NCBI GenBank assembly: GCA_944323625.1
Contig: CALUTD010000015.1
Coordinates: forward strand, 1 to 51,729
DNA: 51,729 nucleotides
Origin: Candidatus Gastranaerophilales bacterium
Lineage (GTDB): Bacteria; Cyanobacteriota; Vampirovibrionia; Gastranaerophilales; Gastranaerophilaceae
Reading direction: 5' to 3'
In this document: in pieces, positions 35,643-42,420 of the stretch
Numbering within the stretch: position 1 is the stretch's first letter
Layout: each line of letters opens with the position of its first letter
Notes under the pieces: model-generated
The model's database searches: none
Seen by the model: only the letters and a program-made list of their open reading frames with translations
Told to the model about the DNA's origin: nothing
Made by a program: the position numbers and the translations under genes

Positions 35643-36428
35643 TTATATATCCATACTGCCTTGTCTTAGCCCTTCAATATCCAGCGTTATATATGTAAAA
35701 CCCATTTGTTTCAGTTGTATAGTTATTTTATCTTTTAATTTTATAAACTTTTCAAAATCTTTGCTTGGAATTTCTATGCGTGCAATATTTTGATGAAGTC
35801 TTACTCGGTTTTCACTAAACCCTGAAGTTTTTAAGTATTTTTCCGCTTGTTTTACGATATTTAAAGATTTCTCGTTCAAAAGAGTGTTATAAGGAAATCT
35901 TGTAGCATAACAAGGGTTTGAAGGTTTATTATATATTTCGGGTTCATATTGTTTAAGATAAGTTCTTATTTCTTCCTTTGTTATTTTATGAAGTGCAAAA
36001 GGTGATATAATATGCAGTTCGTCAAGTGCTTTAAGTCCCGGTCTATATACGTTTAAATCGTCATAATTAGTACCGTCAAAAATATTTCCGAGAGAGTTTT
36101 TAACCGCAAATTCTTTTAATTTTGAAAAAATTTGTTTTTTACAGTGATAACACCTGTCTTTTGGATTTGAGGCTATAATACTGTCTTCAAGCGGATTATA
36201 GTTTATTATTTGATGTTTAACACCGTATTTTTTACAGAAGTTTTTTGCAAATTCAATATCTTCTTCTGCCTGAAAAACTGATTGAAATGTTACTGCGGTA
36301 AGATTTAAATTTTTACACAGAATAAGGAGCATAGCACTGTCAACTCCGCCGGAAAAAGCAAGGCATATACCTTGCTTCCCCGACTCGTTTAAGTATTCTT
36401 TAAGTTTATCGTATTTATTGTTTTTCAT
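35643..36428 (-). CDS. larE: LarE, sacrificial sulfur transferase for the nickel-pincer cofactor
   Basis: Activates and thiolates the pyridinium-dicarboxylate precursor of the nickel-pincer cofactor used by lactate racemase and relatives. The 261-residue product has the PP-loop SGGVDS (residues 26-31), and cysteines at C93 and C96 (RCYHCKK) and C173 (NPCYATRF). LarE proteins either give up a single Cys sulfur or, with three cysteines, use a 4Fe-4S cluster; the three-Cys set here fits the second type. It overlaps larMN by 14 bases and closes the lar operon. Confidence 0.9.
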   Translation of the reverse strand: MKNNKYDKLKEYLNESGKQGICLAFSGGVDSAMLLILCKNLNLTAVTFQSVFQAEEDIEFAKNFCKKYGVKHQIINYNPLEDSIIASNPKDRCYHCKKQIFSKLKEFAVKNSLGNIFDGTNYDDLNVYRPGLKALDELHIISPFALHKITKEEIRTYLKQYEPEIYNKPSNPCYATRFPYNTLLNEKSLNIVKQAEKYLKTSGFSENRVRLHQNIARIEIPSKDFEKFIKLKDKITIQLKQMGFTYITLDIEGLRQGSMDI

Positions 36429-37329
36429 AGACTTGTGCTTGTTTTACCGTTAAAAGTTTACAAACTGTAAGCATTAAAACCGTTACAACTAAGAGCCCTA
36501 ATATATTTGCAAATGCTGAAGGCAATTGAGTTAAAATTGCGGTTTTTGCTTGAAGTGCTTCGGATATCGAATAAATATACCCTTGAGTTTGGGCCATAAA
36601 GGAATCTGACAGGTTAATAAGGGACCATTCCAAACCGTCAGGTTTATTTGAAGCATATTGCGAAATAACTCCGGCTAGAATTAATGCTGTTGTTCCTAAA
36701 GAATATGAAAATACTTTTGATAGTTGTGTATTTTTAGCGGCCAATATTATAACAGCGCTGAATATGCCTTCAACAATACCTATAGGAAGGTGGATTCCCT
36801 GCATTAAACTTGTAAATAAACCGATATTTAAGCTTGTTGAGCCTGATAATGCAGATTCCGCAACAACTGAAATCGACCCGAGCTGGAGTGCTGCAACTGA
36901 AGCCAATATTGTTCCCAAAACAGGTTTATTTCTTTCTGCAAGAGGTTTATATAAAAGCGGATATGCAACAAAACATGACAATATTCCCATATTGAAGATG
37001 TTACATCCGAGTGCTAAAAGTCCGCCGTCTGCAAAGAAAAGAGCTTGAATCAACAATATTGAACATATTGCCAAAAATCCCGTGTAAGGGCCTAAAAGTG
37101 CTGCAAGCAAAAGACCTCCGACTATATGACCGCTTGAACCGGTTTCAGGTATAGCAAAATTTATCATTTGCAGTGCAAAAACAAAAGCTGTTAATGCAAC
37201 TGTAGGTAAAATGTTATCTTTTGAAAAATCTTTTTTAGCTTTTTTGTAAGCCCAAACGGCTGCACATCCTGCCGCTATTAACATTGGAATGCCTGTTACC
37301 GGACATATAATTGAATTTCCCAAATGCAT
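36415..37329 (-). CDS. LarMN-like nickel ECF transporter membrane component (CbiM/NikMN type)
   Basis: Inner-membrane substrate-binding subunit of an energy-coupling-factor transporter. The 304-residue product starts MHLGNSIICPVTG; the exposed N-terminal Met-His metal site is the hallmark of CbiM/NikM proteins, though their His is usually part of MHIxxG. GSSGHIVGGLLLAALLGPYTG and FADGGLLALGCNIFNMG are family blocks. The C-terminal third (ASNKPDGLEWSL, then a final helix) corresponds to CbiN/NikN, so M and N are fused. Lying between larC and larE, nickel is the likely cargo. The ATPase and T subunits are not in the window. AAAGGAG precedes the ATG. Confidence 0.88.
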   Translation of the reverse strand: MHLGNSIICPVTGIPMLIAAGCAAVWAYKKAKKDFSKDNILPTVALTAFVFALQMINFAIPETGSSGHIVGGLLLAALLGPYTGFLAICSILLIQALFFADGGLLALGCNIFNMGILSCFVAYPLLYKPLAERNKPVLGTILASVAALQLGSISVVAESALSGSTSLNIGLFTSLMQGIHLPIGIVEGIFSAVIILAAKNTQLSKVFSYSLGTTALILAGVISQYASNKPDGLEWSLINLSDSFMAQTQGYIYSISEALQAKTAILTQLPSAFANILGLLVVTVLMLTVCKLLTVKQAQVYEKQ

Positions 37330-37340
37330 ATTTGTCTCCT

Positions 37341-38093
37341 TTATTTTATCTTCATTACTCTTAAAATCGGATTTTCATATTTTCTTTTTCCTGCGCCGTA
37401 TCCGACCTTTTCTATAATAAATTTTTCGGGCAGATTTTCTCCCGTATACAAAGCAGCGGCTATTGCGGCTCCTGTCGGAGTAACCATTTCCCCGTCATTA
37501 TTTGTAATTTTTAATGGCTATTCATATTTTGAAGCAATTTCACATACGGCAGGAACCGGAACCGGTAACTTTCCGTGCTGACATTCCACGAAGCCCTGAC
37601 CTTCGGTTAAGGTCGAAAAGTATACTTTTTCAGGATGTAAATCGTCAAAAAGTACAGAAAAGCTTACAATATCAGCAATAGAATCTATTGCGCCGACTTC
37701 ATGAAAATGTACATCTTTAATATCTTTTCCGTGGACTTTTGCTTCCGCCTCCGCTACTATTTTAAATATTTTTTTTGCCAGTTCTTTTGCTTTTTCTGTT
37801 GTTTCGGCTTTATCAATAATTTTATTTACGTCATCTAAATTTCTATGCTCGTGATGATGATGTTCGTGTGCATGATGTTCATGATGATGTTTTTCTTCGG
37901 GAAGTATAACATCAAAATCTGTTGCACTTATTGAATTTATACTTACTTTTGAAATTTTATATGTAAATTCATTTTCTAAATTCATTGATTTTAGTGCTTT
38001 ATCAAGTTTTTCACGTGAAGCTCCAAGGTCAAGCAACGCAGCTGTTGACATATCACCTGAAATACCTGATTTACATTCAAAATATAAATTCAT
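37341..38093 (-). pseudogene. larC: LarC (nickel insertase) with in-frame TAG and no C-terminal domain
   Basis: LarC inserts nickel into the pincer cofactor. From ATG 38093 (AAAGGG upstream) the frame encodes FECKSGISGDMSTAALLDLG, a His-rich metal loop around residues 68-83, and FHEVGAIDSIADIV, then meets TAG at 37520-37518 (codon 192). In the same frame it continues PLKITNNDGEMVTPTGAAI and GYGAGKRKYENPILRV to TAA at 37343-37341. The whole is about 250 codons; LarC is usually about 400. The C-terminal domain that binds CTP in the characterised enzyme is missing. In Lactobacillus plantarum larC is read through a programmed frameshift, so recoding is conceivable; decay is the simpler view. Other genes here stop at TAG normally. 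Confidence 0.75.
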
Positions 38094-38096
38094 TAA

Positions 38097-38774
38097 CTAC
38101 CCTTTCGCAATTTTTCTGTTTATTTGATTTGCACTGTATCCGGCATTAAAACCATTATCTATATTAACAACGGTCATACCTTCCGCACAGCTGTTAAGCA
38201 TTGTTAAAAGCGCTGATATTCCGTTTAACGATGTTCCGTATCCTACTGATGTAGGAAGTGCAATAACGGGAATATCTACAAGTCCTGCAATAATACCGCC
38301 TAAAGCTCCCTCCATGCCTGCTGCCGCAATTATCACATTAGCTTTTTTTATTTCATCTATTTTGTCAAATAATCTGTGGATGCCCGCAACGCCTATATCA
38401 TAATATTTTTTTACATTACTGCCGAAAAATTCTGCTGTTTCCGCAGCTTCTTCCGCTGCCGGAATATCTCCTGTTCCTCCGGTGCAGACTGCAACTTCTC
38501 CTACTTTTATGATTTCTTTTTGTATCAGTGTAATTACTTTTGCAGTTTCATTATATTTGATATCTTGAATTTGTTTTGACAGAGCTTCATATTGTTCTTT
38601 TGATGCCCTGGTTCCTATAACATTTGAGCCTGCTTCTTTAAACGCCTTGAATATTGAAATTAATTGTTCATTTGTTTTGCATTCACAAAACACGGCTTCC
38701 GAGAAGCCTCTTCTTTTTGTTCTTTCCGTATCGAGTTTAGCAAAACCCAGTTCTATATATTTTTTATCAACCAT
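38097..38774 (-). CDS. larB: LarB, nicotinate-adenine-dinucleotide carboxylase/hydrolase
   Basis: First enzyme of nickel-pincer cofactor synthesis. The 225-residue product is PurE-like: LGFAKLDTERTKRRGFSEAVFCE at the N-terminus, then a Rossmann-like half with VAVCTGGTGDIPAAEEAAE (about residues 99-117), ANVIIAAAGMEGALGG, LVDIPVIALPTSVGYGTSLNG and VVNIDNGFNAGYSA. The end overlaps the larC ribosome site. The gene heads the operon larB-larC-larMN-larE. No Shine-Dalgarno site precedes the ATG, and the -10 box ends six bases before it, so the mRNA is probably leaderless. larA, the usual partner, is not in the window. Confidence 0.9.
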   Translation of the reverse strand: MVDKKYIELGFAKLDTERTKRRGFSEAVFCECKTNEQLISIFKAFKEAGSNVIGTRASKEQYEALSKQIQDIKYNETAKVITLIQKEIIKVGEVAVCTGGTGDIPAAEEAAETAEFFGSNVKKYYDIGVAGIHRLFDKIDEIKKANVIIAAAGMEGALGGIIAGLVDIPVIALPTSVGYGTSLNGISALLTMLNSCAEGMTVVNIDNGFNAGYSANQINRKIAKG

Positions 38775-38780
38775 AATAAT

Positions 38781-38811
38781 ATTTTAAACATTGATAGCTG
38801 CTATCAGTCAA
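38781..38811 (-). promoter_or_regulatory. lar operon promoter with palindromic operator
   Basis: On the minus strand: TTGACT (38811-38806), a 19-base spacer, TAAAAT (38786-38781). The perfect dyad TGATAGC-A-GCTATCA occupies 38792-38806, between the two boxes and touching the -35. The start codon follows at 38774. The same layout occurs at 42390-42420. A 19-base spacer with a centred dyad is the geometry of MerR-family promoters. The -35 overlaps the last codons of tatC. Confidence 0.7.
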
Positions 38812-39539
38812 GAATTATTTTTATCTTGTGAATTATACTTCCTTGCAAAAAAGAGTCCTGCTTCAAAAAGGCAATATGTAGGAATGAAGAGCATAATTTG
38901 GCTTATAACGTCAGGCGGTGTCAATATTGCAGCCACAAATAATAATATTACTATTACATATCTTCTTTTTTCGCATACGGAGTCATAAGAAATTATACCC
39001 GATTTAATAAGGTAATATGTTATAAGCGGCATTTGAAACATAAAACCAAAGGCAACAGACAGCCAAAGCGCCGTTGTTATTATATTAGATATACCAAATA
39101 CAGCCTGTATATTTGATGTTGAAAAACTTACCCCGAATTTTATTATCCACGGCAATATTATAAATATACAAAATAGTACACCTAATGCAAATAACATACT
39201 TGAAATTAAAACAACGGATTTAATTATTTTTCTTTCGTTGTCATACAATGCAGGAAGAAGAAAATTCCAAATCTGTTTTGCTATATAAGGAAAACAAACT
39301 ATAAAATCAATAACAAGAGCAAGCTTAATCTGAATTATAAAAACTTCTATCGGTGAAAAATAATTTAACATAACACTACTCTCGCCGATAATAATTTTTA
39401 TAAGCATATTAAGTGCCTTAGGCGCAATAAAAAACGCAAACGGCAATATAAGCCCCATTGAAATAAAGCATTTTAAAAGCGTTTCACGAAGTGCTTCCAA
39501 ATGTGAAATTAGCGTTTCGTTGTCCTTATCTTCGGGCAT
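38808..39539 (-). CDS. tatC: Twin-arginine translocase subunit TatC
   Basis: Membrane receptor of the Tat pathway, which exports folded, cofactor-bearing proteins. The 243-residue product has the family opening ISHLEALRETLLKCFISM, six membrane helices, PIEVFIIQIKLALVIDF, the FxxE-like region and FGFMFQMPLITYYLIKSGI. It starts one base after tatA ends. No tatB is present, so this is a minimal TatAC system. A folded substrate, the Fe-S aldo-keto reductase, lies two genes upstream. The gene ends inside the lar promoter. Confidence 0.95.
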   Translation of the reverse strand: MPEDKDNETLISHLEALRETLLKCFISMGLILPFAFFIAPKALNMLIKIIIGESSVMLNYFSPIEVFIIQIKLALVIDFIVCFPYIAKQIWNFLLPALYDNERKIIKSVVLISSMLFALGVLFCIFIILPWIIKFGVSFSTSNIQAVFGISNIITTALWLSVAFGFMFQMPLITYYLIKSGIISYDSVCEKRRYVIVILLFVAAILTPPDVISQIMLFIPTYCLFEAGLFFARKYNSQDKNNS

Positions 39540-39540
39540 T

Positions 39541-39774
39541 TTATACTTCCGGATTTTTTACATCATCTTTTAACTGATATTCCTGAGGTTTTTCGGCTGC
39601 ATCTTCAATAGCATCTTTCAAACCTTTTGCTTCTTTTTGAATAATATCTTTTGCTTTTTTATATTCATAAGAAGCTCGGCCTAAAGCTCTTGCAAGCTCA
39701 GGGATTCTTTTTCCCCCAAATAATAATAAAATAACTACTAATATTAATGTAATTTCTGTTATACCAAGTGACAT
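39541..39774 (-). CDS. tatA: Twin-arginine translocase subunit TatA
   Basis: Pore-forming Tat subunit. The 77-residue product has a short N-terminal membrane helix ([15 protein letters not shown]), the hinge [16 protein letters not shown] with the conserved FG, and a charged amphipathic helix, then an acidic tail. Length and layout are those of TatA/TatE. It is followed directly by tatC and preceded by the polyferredoxin gene after 24 bases, all on one strand. Confidence 0.95.
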
Positions 39775-39798: not shown

Positions 39799-41082
39799 TT
39801 ATACCATTCTTTGTTCATTTACCGCAAATATTTCTATTGCGTCAAACTTGCAGGAAATTTTACATTTTCCGCAGCCTATACATTTTTGTCCGTTAACTGT
39901 ATATCTGTTGTCTTCTGTTTTTATAATAGCACCTTTAGGGCAATCAAGCGCGCATAGACCGCATTTATTACATTTATCAGAATTAATCATTGCCATTGCA
40001 ATACGAATTCTTTGTTTTTCTTCTAATGATATTTTCTGTATGGCTCCTGACGGGCATACTTTTGTACATTCATTGCAATCATATTTGCAATAACCTTCTC
40101 CGTTTGAATAATCAATATGAACTGCGGGATAATTTTCATCTGTTTTTTTTAATATTTTATTAGGACAGTTTTCAATACATAAATTACAATTTAAACATTT
40201 ATTAGCCATTCTGTTTGTATTTAATGCACCCGGAGGGATAATTATATCACGAACTTTAGCAGCATATCTGCCGGCAGTTTCAATTCCGGCTTTTATTGCA
40301 GCTCCAAACAGTACCAGTGAAGATAATGTCCATATAAAATCACGCCTTTTAGGATTAAATTTCAATTCTTTTTTCGGTTTAATGCCGTATTTTATTGCAT
40401 TTCTTTTACAAGTACCCAAACATTTCATACATTTGATGCATGTTACATTATCAACTTCTTTTTCTTTGTGGTCAATACAACCCGAGGGACATTCTTTTGC
40501 ACACAATGAACAAGAAAGACATGAATCTTTATCAATATATATTTTATTTAAAGAAATTTTTGATATAACTCCTAAAAGCGCGCCTACGGGGCAGATATTT
40601 GTACAAAAATATCTGTTTTTAAAAAACACCAATATAATTAGAGCTGCCAATACAATAAGTCCGAAGGCACTGCAACTAAACGCGGAACCAAATATTGTAT
40701 AAGGGTCTAAATATCTTATTGCAAGTGCACTTCCGCCTATTAACATTCCAAATGATATGACCGCTAAAAAGTATTTTAAAGGAAGATTCTTATGAAATCC
40801 GTTTTTACGCCTCATAATCAAGGCTATAAATTCCTGTAAAATTCCGAATGGACATAATATTGAACAATAAAATCTGCCGAATAATATTGTTAATATTACT
40901 ATTGTCAAAAGTATAATTAATGCGGTCAAAGAATAGTCAAATATTGTCCTTTGAAGCAGTGCTGCGAATTGTAAATCTAAAAATTTTATTTTGTAAAAAA
41001 TACCAAAAATTGCAAGCAAAGACAAAATACCGACAATTCCGGCAAATGTTAATCTTAAAATATAAAACAGTTTTTTGTTCAT
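39799..41082 (-). CDS. NapH/MauN-like membrane polyferredoxin
   Basis: Integral membrane electron-transfer protein. The 427-residue product has about four membrane helices in the first 155 residues, with CSILCPFGILQEF and CTNICPVGALLG, the paired motifs of NapH/CcoG-like proteins. Then come 4Fe-4S motifs CLSCSLCAKECPSGC and CIKCMKCLGTCKRN, another membrane helix (about 250-265), and four more motifs: CLNCNLCIENCPN, CNECTKVCPSGA, CNKCGLCALDCPKGA and CIGCGKCKISCKFDA. It could therefore carry six or more clusters. It probably passes electrons across the membrane to the exported Fe-S aldo-keto reductase upstream; that link is inferred from gene order. Confidence 0.8.
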   Translation of the reverse strand: MNKKLFYILRLTFAGIVGILSLLAIFGIFYKIKFLDLQFAALLQRTIFDYSLTALIILLTIVILTILFGRFYCSILCPFGILQEFIALIMRRKNGFHKNLPLKYFLAVISFGMLIGGSALAIRYLDPYTIFGSAFSCSAFGLIVLAALIILVFFKNRYFCTNICPVGALLGVISKISLNKIYIDKDSCLSCSLCAKECPSGCIDHKEKEVDNVTCIKCMKCLGTCKRNAIKYGIKPKKELKFNPKRRDFIWTLSSLVLFGAAIKAGIETAGRYAAKVRDIIIPPGALNTNRMANKCLNCNLCIENCPNKILKKTDENYPAVHIDYSNGEGYCKYDCNECTKVCPSGAIQKISLEEKQRIRIAMAMINSDKCNKCGLCALDCPKGAIIKTEDNRYTVNGQKCIGCGKCKISCKFDAIEIFAVNEQRMV

Positions 41083-41110: not shown

Positions 41111-41138
41111 AAAGATACCCGAATTTTCGGGTATCTTT
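41111..41138 (-). terminator. Hairpin between the aldo-keto reductase and polyferredoxin genes
   Basis: AAAGATACCCGA (41111-41122) pairs with TCGGGTATCTTT (41127-41138) around a 4-base loop. As the flanking genes run the same way, it is either a terminator or a step-down point that lowers expression of the polyferredoxin-tatA-tatC part. Confidence 0.75.
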
Positions 41139-41145
41139 ATATATT

Positions 41146-42366
41146 CTATGAAAATGTTTTTATTTCCGCATCTATTTTCTTTAATAAATCAGGAATCATC
41201 AACGATTGAGGACAGTTTGTATTACATAAGTTACAGCTTATACACTTATCTGCTCTTTCATTTTCATCCAATGTATTATAATAGATAGAAAATAACATTT
41301 TGTTTCCTGTTGTTTTATATTGGTTGTACAAAGAAAATATAGCCGGAATATTTATACCTCTCGGGCAAACTTCCAAGCAGTATTTGCAAGCTGTGCAATT
41401 TATTTCACCCTGTGATTGAATTACTTTCGCAACTTCTTGTGCTGCAATATTTTCCTGTTCATCCATTTCTTTATAATCAATAAATGTTTGAATATTTTGT
41501 TTTACCTGTTCAAGGTTGCTCATACCGCTTAATACGGTAATTACGTTTTTTCTGCTTGCCGCCCATCTTAAACCGAATGCAGCAGGAGTTGCATCAGGGT
41601 AGTATTCTTTTAATTTTGCAAGTGCTTTATCACTTAAATTGACAAGTCCGCCGCCTCTTAAAGGTTCCATAACCGTTACGGGAATATTATGTGACTGTAC
41701 TATATCATACTGTTCTTTTGCTTTTACAACATCCCAATCAAGATAATTAATTTGAAGCTGTGCAAAATCCCAAGGGTGCTCGGGGGCAACTTCTTTTAAC
41801 ATCTCGGGAGTTCCGTGGAATGAAAAGCCCACATATTTTACTCTGCCTTCTTTTTTAAATTCCATCAACTGATTATACATATCATAATTACGATAATTAT
41901 CTATTGTATTTTTATTGATATTATGAACCATATAAAAATCAAAATAGTCAGTCTGACATTTTTTTAATTGTTCATCAAAAATTCTTCTTACATCGTCTTT
42001 TGATTTCATGTGCATGGCAGGACTCTTATCCGCAATAATAAGACTTTTCCTGTCATAATGTTTTAAAACATTACCCATTGCAGTTTCAGATTTTCCGTTA
42101 ACGTACATATATGCGGTATCAAAGTAATTTGCACCATGAGCCATACAATACTCAACCATTTTTTCAAGTTCGGGCATGTCCACTTCGGCGCCGTTCATTG
42201 GTAGCCTCATACAGCCCAACCCCAGCAGAGGAACAAGAATATCTTTATATTGTCTTTTTGCCACCTGATTTTCGGATAATACGGGCTTTTTTTGTCCGCA
42301 ACCGGTCAACAGTGCACTGCCGCCTATTGCTAATGCCGAGTTAATTATAAATTCACGTCTTTTCAT
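41146..42366 (-). CDS. Tat-exported aldo/keto reductase with C-terminal ferredoxin domain
   Basis: The 406-residue product begins MKRREFIINSALAIGGSALL and TGCGQKK: a twin-arginine motif (RREFI), hydrophobic stretch and lipobox Cys, so it is probably a Tat-dependent lipoprotein. Residues 40-310 form an aldo/keto reductase barrel with the tetrad contexts NYFDTAYMYVNG (Asp, Tyr), IIADKSP (Lys) and DFYMVHNIN (His). The end carries two 4Fe-4S motifs, CTACKYCLEVCPRG and CISCNLCNTNCPQS. The combination with tatA, tatC and a membrane polyferredoxin downstream suggests an envelope redox system. AGGAGG precedes the ATG. The substrate is unknown. Confidence 0.85.
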   Translation of the reverse strand: MKRREFIINSALAIGGSALLTGCGQKKPVLSENQVAKRQYKDILVPLLGLGCMRLPMNGAEVDMPELEKMVEYCMAHGANYFDTAYMYVNGKSETAMGNVLKHYDRKSLIIADKSPAMHMKSKDDVRRIFDEQLKKCQTDYFDFYMVHNINKNTIDNYRNYDMYNQLMEFKKEGRVKYVGFSFHGTPEMLKEVAPEHPWDFAQLQINYLDWDVVKAKEQYDIVQSHNIPVTVMEPLRGGGLVNLSDKALAKLKEYYPDATPAAFGLRWAASRKNVITVLSGMSNLEQVKQNIQTFIDYKEMDEQENIAAQEVAKVIQSQGEINCTACKYCLEVCPRGINIPAIFSLYNQYKTTGNKMLFSIYYNTLDENERADKCISCNLCNTNCPQSLMIPDLLKKIDAEIKTFS

Positions 42367-42389: not shown

Positions 42390-42420
42390 ATAATACACTC
42401 TGATAGTAACTATCAGTCAA
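42390..42420 (-). promoter_or_regulatory. Promoter of the aldo-keto reductase/Tat operon with palindromic operator
   Basis: On the minus strand: TTGACT (42420-42415), a 19-base spacer, TATTAT (42395-42390). The perfect dyad CTGATAG-TTA-CTATCAG spans 42400-42416. The block TTGACTGATAG is identical to that in the lar promoter, and the second half-site CTATCA is shared. A common MerR-type regulator is the simplest explanation. Confidence 0.7.

Follow-up and report, generated by a model that had tools for sequence, protein, structure and literature searches.

Operators of a putative MerR-type regulator probably link nickel-pincer cofactor genes to an exported redox enzyme in Candidatus Gastranaerophilales

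Our comparative analysis of a 51,729-nucleotide stretch of DNA from a Candidatus Gastranaerophilales bacterium (hereafter the window) showed that two of its promoters share the same dyad operator: promoter A, upstream of the gene for a Tat-exported aldo-keto reductase, and promoter B, upstream of larB. Judged from sequence, these two dyads are very probably operators of a single MerR-family regulator, related to NmlR and AdhR but distinct from both, which would govern a regulon of several operons; this high confidence covers the link between operator and regulator and excludes the signal. In the model that we propose, a MerR dimer would occupy the dyad within an over-long 19-bp spacer and hold the promoter off until it senses its signal, whereupon it would kink and untwist the DNA so that the -35 and -10 boxes align. 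The Tat-exported 4Fe-4S aldo-keto reductase, with the NapH-like polyferredoxin, TatA and TatC encoded downstream, would in this way be coinduced with the larB-larC-cbiM-larE operon, which is predicted to make the nickel-pincer nucleotide. Nickel-cofactor genes and an exported redox enzyme thus probably respond jointly to one inducing signal. Such a circuit would tie nickel-pincer cofactor synthesis to redox or electrophile defense and would mean that, for an uncultured gut order, a stress regulon can be defined by its exact operator, its regulator and its targets. Neither a MerR-controlled lar operon nor a Gastranaerophilales regulon was found described in the literature within reach, from which most subscription journals were missing; as far as this search shows, the operator and target set are new, whereas the mechanism belongs to a known type.

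Both promoters (Table 1) read TTGACT-GATAG-N3-CTATCA, and a re-reading of the sequence bore out the preliminary description in that the half-sites are shared and each -10 box lies exactly 19 bases from its -35 box. The same description had held that the dyads keep their half-sites but differ in their centers. The first part stands; the second does not, as both dyads are the same 15-bp TGATAG-NNN-CTATCA with a symmetric Y-N-R center. In the window, the pattern TTGACTGATAG-N(1-5)-CTATCA occurs twice, versus 0 occurrences in 100 shuffles, and TGATAG-N(1-5)-CTATCA likewise occurs twice, versus a shuffle mean of 0.03. Site B runs into the final codons of tatC, and the larB ATG starts 37 bases past the first -35 base of that site. 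Promoter A offers rival -10 boxes, namely, a TATAAT 22 bases from TTGACT and the combination CTGATA-18-TATAAT, which scores 10/12, and these competing readings count against the MerR interpretation.

Table 1. Positions of the promoters, genes and loci discussed (window coordinates unless a genome or locus handle precedes them)
Feature	Position	Strand	Details
Promoter A	42390..42420	(-)	-35 TTGACT 42415-42420; -10 TATTAT 42390-42395; 19-bp spacer
Promoter A dyad	42401-42415	(-)	15-bp TGATAG-TTA-CTATCA
Promoter B	38781..38811	(-)	-35 TTGACT 38806-38811; -10 TAAAAT 38781-38786; 19-bp spacer
Promoter B dyad	38792-38806	(-)	TGATAG-CAG-CTATCA
Aldo-keto reductase with C-terminal 4Fe-4S region	41146..42366	(-)	PF00248 1.5e-42; Fer4_9 2.2e-8
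Strong terminator-like hairpin	41111-41138		Between aldo-keto reductase and NapH-like genes
NapH-like membrane polyferredoxin	39799..41082	(-)	NapH models 1e-29 and 4e-28, below cut-offs; Fer4 domains
tatA	39541..39774	(-)	77 codons plus stop; protein start the same as that of the TatA-like gene behind the G014 (L072) operator
tatC	38808..39539	(-)	TIGR00945 162.8 bits, above cut-off
larB, nickel-pincer nucleotide biosynthesis	38097..38774	(-)	NF033503 286 bits, above cut-off
larC, LarC1 type without LarC2 part	37344..38093	(-)	TIGR00299 143.5 bits on first part, above cut-off
CbiM-like metal transporter component	36415..37329	(-)	PF01891 9e-47; PDGLE 2e-9
larE	35643..36428	(-)	TIGR00268 262.6 bits, above cut-off
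merR orthologue of the window's genome (L022)	G000:C3:5975-6364	(-)	In-frame TGA in DNA-binding domain
DUF362 gene behind operator	L204:2252-3133
DUF362 gene behind operator	L209:2092-2973
DUF362 gene behind operator	L212:2986-3867
DUF362 gene in two frame-shifted pieces	L122:4323-5724	(-)
Unnamed 343- to 365-residue protein	L221:2822-3874		Homologues in other species

The genes behind the two promoters form two blocks, the first comprising the aldo-keto reductase, NapH-like, tatA and tatC genes and the second larB, larC, a cbiM-like gene and larE. The aldo-keto reductase carries the twin-arginine signal MKRREFIINSALAIGGSALLTGCG and, by eye, a possible lipobox LTGC. Given the hairpin that separates its gene from the NapH-like gene, the first block is possibly only partly cotranscribed.

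A scan of the whole draft genome (1.99 Mb in 37 contigs) returned three exact sites in total: A, B and a third that precedes dxs, with a 19-base spacer and the -10 box TACAAT. All three match the consensus exactly at 19-bp spacing. Allowing up to three mismatches added six more places, one of them the dxs palindrome on its opposite strand. Dozens of unrelated hits across the genome, which would have spoken against the proposal of a shared operator, were therefore not found.

The order Candidatus Gastranaerophilales sits in Candidatus Melainabacteria, within the Cyanobacteriota/Melainabacteria group, and 58 of 80 operator-bearing contigs among the matches listed have titles containing "Gastranaerophil-". 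A search of 41 genomes from the genus found the 20-base site in exact form 11 times, in 7 genomes, versus 0 times for the reversed control, and tolerating up to two mismatches gave 66 matches versus 2 for the reversed pattern. At the loci inspected, 63 distinct sites with up to two mismatches were collected without any -10 requirement, and TAnnnT stands at 19 bp in 49 of them and at 18 bp in 7. Dyad positions 11 and 13, which were left free in the search pattern, carry complementary bases in 42 of 49 sites from the genus (22 C..G and 20 T..A). A few of the 63 sites, such as those at L052 and L065, have no -10 box, lie within or next to unrelated genes and look like chance. The same operators precede the same operons in relatives, as the proposal would have it; orthologous aldo-keto reductase genes carry the operator too, and the island operator-flavodoxin-reductase-NapH-TatC-operator-larB is conserved in L075 and L118, with the two operators about 4.15 kb apart.

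These data also bear on a reading in which site A acts chiefly as a hairpin or attenuator, site B is a chance internal promoter and their likeness is coincidental. While CTGATAGTTACTATCAG followed by AGTGTATTAT was flagged as terminator-like, the shared pattern is missing from all 100 shuffles, the operator is kept before orthologous genes across genera, and -35 and -10 boxes flank the dyad at a fixed spacing, so that we consider this reading extremely improbable. Both the hairpin interpretation of site A and chance were rejected, being contradicted by the shuffles, the geometry of the genus sites and the comparative data.

The geometry of the larB operators permits a further prediction. Among 19 distinct examples, the start codon, counted from the start of the -35 box, lies at +37 (15 operators) or +38 (2 operators) when the spacer is 19 bp and at +36 (2 operators) when it is 18 bp. 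Since the start codon shifts with the -10 box, the larB transcript should start at the ATG or no more than one or two bases away. In every species inspected, the larB start codon coincides with the predicted transcription start, which suggests that the larB message is conserved as leaderless.

A different question is whether the dyad serves a MerR-type activator or a repressor of another family (e.g., TetR, MarR or LysR) that would block the -35 region, the 19-bp spacing being incidental. The center of the dyad is base 7 of the spacer, and the dyad overlaps the -35 box and is centered closer to it than to the -10 box, as a blocking repressor would have it. Dyad centers in SoxR and CueR promoters lie 0.5 to 1 base farther from the -35 box, and this offset counts against a standard MerR reading. 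In addition, a LysR-type gene lies beside the L122 cluster, in which DUF362, flavodoxin, aldo-keto reductase, NapH and TatC genes precede a larB-type operator. The 19-bp spacing, however, is kept in 49 of the 63 genus sites, and a blocking repressor would not need it; co-occurrence and adjacency (see below) moreover favor merR across several genera as well as among lactic acid bacteria. We consequently regard a repressor of another family as improbable and retain the MerR interpretation. MerR promoters are described as having spacers of 19 to 20 bp, with the activated dimer kinking the dyad and mimicking a 17-bp spacer (PMC9909328, PMC5045206). Like the classical promoters as far as these accounts describe them (mer, copA/CueR and soxS/SoxR), those of the window carry a dyad in a 19-bp spacer; they differ in that the dyad is an odd one of 15 to 17 bp centered on spacer base 7.

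The link to a MerR regulator was established by comparison between genomes. In the genome of the window, a single MerR_1 match was found, which is also the sole MerR orthologue, and orthologues are present in 21 of the 41 genus genomes, with 67 to 77% identity to the G040 protein. Sites with up to one mismatch occur in 19 of the 21 genus genomes with a MerR orthologue and in 0 of the 20 without one (Fisher 9e-10). At the level of the order (241 genomes; sites with up to one mismatch and a -10 box), a strong MerR orthologue accompanies 76 of 80 site-bearing genomes versus 31 of 161 site-free genomes (Fisher 6e-32, a value that ignores relatedness). In four order genomes (G098, G168, G212 and G236), the site is thus not accompanied by a strong MerR, and in 31 others, MerR is present while no site reaches the threshold applied, perhaps with divergent operators; both groups count against the link between operator and regulator.

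Adjacency points in the same direction as co-occurrence. The operator lies immediately upstream of merR in G020 and G040; with three mismatches, it lies no more than 132 bp before merR in G024, G027, G028, G035 and G039. At the other merR orthologue loci inspected, the 300 bp upstream contained no site with up to three mismatches. Operators 10 to 45 bp from a divergent merR occur in G172, G261, G209, G217 and G076 and twice in G057, and at L078, a single operon of dxs and merR follows an operator. Outside the group, Liquorilactobacillus aquaticus and two Leuconostoc records carry the operator between two divergent genes, one for a short-chain dehydrogenase and the other merR (41 to 43% identity), and beside the site of a fourth lactic acid bacterial record (L109), no MerR was found. 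The expectation that a MerR gene would stand next to another copy of the operator was thereby confirmed both in Gastranaerophilales (e.g., G020, G040, G172 and L078) and in lactic acid bacteria. Along with the scarcity of exact sites in the genome, the conservation of the dyads and the co-occurrence data, it lends support to the shared, putatively MerR-bound operator put forward in the preliminary description. Nothing in these searches, which were directed at MerR, points to the HxlR-type regulator named there as the alternative.

The regulator itself has a MerR helix-turn-helix domain (PF13411, 3.6e-16 and 4e-19; PF00376, 2.7e-9 and 8.7e-13), and the closest solved structures by sequence are those of HiNmlR (5e01, 5d90 and 5d8c; E of about 2.5e-23), with similarity over nearly the full length. 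The NmlR model NF041849 also matches over nearly the full length, at 86.3 and 92.7 bits; these scores fall below its cut-off of 175, and we therefore refer to the regulator as NmlR-like rather than NmlR. With HiNmlR (HI_0186) and B. subtilis AdhR (YraB), it shares the MerR family and the cysteine aligned to Cys54 (Haemophilus) or Cys52 (Bacillus), which was present at all 20 orthologue loci inspected. This cysteine is described as invariant throughout the NmlR clade (PMC4776306), and NmlR and AdhR are described as responding to formaldehyde, AdhR also to methylglyoxal (PMC4776306; PMC3499171). By analogy, the putative signal may be a reactive carbonyl or another electrophile perceived through the conserved cysteine, a proposal on which we are almost evenly divided, with doubt slightly ahead. 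In the lactic acid bacterial loci (L088, L090 and L146), the same operator goes with a related MerR without the NmlR cysteine and with a short-chain dehydrogenase target; all three proteins have Ala at this position, so that sharing the operator does not by itself imply sharing the signal.

Two overlapping and hence nonindependent sets of sites were used to define targets: a broader contig scan, which required a -10-like TAnnnT, yielded at least 112 loci and was kept out of the assessment of spacing, and the genus sites described above. Examples of the overlap, judged by length and sequence, are L110 with G033 and L113 with G006. Counted as scan loci/genus sites, the first gene after the site encodes a flavodoxin (at least 21/3), a cupin or decarboxylase-cupin (at least 16/5), Dxs (at least 15/5), an aldo-keto reductase (at least 11/15), an FMN reductase (at least 10/3), an acyltransferase-like hexapeptide protein, itself a weak match (at least 10/0), LarB (at least 9/7), a 5'-nucleotidase-like phosphoesterase (at least 5/0) or an unnamed 343- to 365-residue protein whose gene precedes larB (at least 1/9). 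DUF362 and merR genes come first at 3 and 2 genus sites, respectively, and at none of the scan loci among the matches listed. Smaller target groups exist besides these main families. As we interpret it, this set of targets would suit a response to stress from carbonyls, quinones or other electrophiles. The recurring set includes cupin/carboxymuconolactone-decarboxylase proteins, and a carboxymuconolactone decarboxylase is described as being under AdhR control in B. subtilis (PMC4776306), a likeness in target between the two systems. The regulon proposed here, whose operator is TGATAG-YNR-CTATCA, is much larger than those of NmlR and AdhR; its nickel-pincer biosynthesis, dxs and Tat-exported reductase targets are not reported for any NmlR in the accounts consulted.

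The lar genes under this operator come without their usual partner. LarB is present in 34 of the 41 genus genomes, and no LarA (PF09861) was found in the genome of the window. PF09861 exceeded its cut-off in 0 of 241 order genomes and was detected in the control genomes of T. maritima and M. acetivorans; within the 41 genus genomes, Lar_N (PF09861) gave weak matches in 3, 1 of them over cut-off, and all three lie inside DUF362 proteins. LarC in the order has about 245 to 275 residues and is LarC1-like, with no LarC2 downstream (window; L222, L223, L190, L205 and L208); LarC2 is the CTP-binding part of LarC. Compared with the lar operon of Lactiplantibacillus plantarum, LarB, LarC and LarE are held in common, whereas LarA is missing here, LarC lacks LarC2 and the operator is of the MerR type; LarR of L. 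plantarum is of the Crp/Fnr type. Genomes with larB, larC and larE and without larA make up about 15% of those analyzed in a published survey, many cyanobacteria included, and users of the nickel-pincer cofactor other than LarA were proposed there (PMC11796402). What sets the present case apart from the larA-less genomes, as far as that account describes them, is that the biosynthesis genes are tied by an operator to a defined redox set.

This opens the way for another hypothesis, namely, that the regulon holds the missing client of the nickel-pincer cofactor and that an electrophile-sensing MerR would induce synthesis and user together. We put it forward as speculative and rather unlikely. 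If it were true, the cofactor would serve carbonyl or quinone detoxification and not hydroxyacid racemization. Coregulation in any case narrows the search for the user to a few proteins that can be tested. The Tat aldo-keto reductase, together with its NapH-like partner, is one candidate; a DUF362 protein driven by the operator and the unnamed 343- to 365-residue protein are the others. DUF362 genes lie directly behind an operator in G029, G034 and G035, and GFGGALKN is invariant in 10 of 10 aligned DUF362 proteins; HFKGH and cysteines are invariant motifs as well. DUF362 and DUF2088 (LarA) are described as members of one Pfam clan (PMC11770544). A profile of the 10 DUF362 proteins searched against solved structures retrieved no LarA at E up to 10, so that the connection between DUF362 and LarA consists of the three weak PF09861 matches and the shared clan as described in that source. 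DUF362 is present in 17 of the 41 genus genomes and absent from that of the window; unless its gene escaped detection, it thus cannot be the client in this genome, and it is at best a partial answer. At L122, the DUF362 gene is in two frame-shifted pieces, in a cluster DUF362-flavodoxin-reductase-NapH-TatC-operator beside the LysR-type gene. The unnamed protein (L221 and homologues) heads the lar operon in many species; it has no Pfam match, and its predicted structure is poor, with a mean pLDDT of 54.8.

The state of the circuit in the genome of the window requires separate consideration. An in-frame TGA falls within the DNA-binding domain of its own merR orthologue, which counts against a working MerR circuit and makes the function of the circuit in this genome uncertain. 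By eye, the gene lies beside a pheT-like gene, and it has no operator upstream; an in-frame TGA also occurs in the orthologue of G225. The larC gene of the window contains an in-frame TAG following KYE (KYE*PLKI), past which the frame resumes, and by eye it is the sole broken-looking gene among its same-frame neighbors in the window. These stops reflect either decay of the circuit in this lineage or errors in the draft genome. The regulon may accordingly be real in relatives and derelict here, with merR a pseudogene, larC broken and the operators remnants, a reading that is compatible with the MerR-regulon explanation for the order as a whole and to which we give appreciable weight without favoring it. 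In its support, both genes carry internal stops, larC is uninterrupted in the relatives inspected, and the other 20 merR orthologues of the genus are listed without an internal stop. Single stops, on the other hand, can arise in a draft genome when assembly goes wrong or strains are mixed; the reading frames of larB and larE are open, and all three operators retain the exact consensus at 19-bp spacing, which means that any loss would be recent.

In addition to these loci, two records titled Fusobacterium sp. (L077) and Clostridiaceae (L126) have the same sites as G162 and G217, members of the family of the window, and their titles therefore look like those of misnamed bins.
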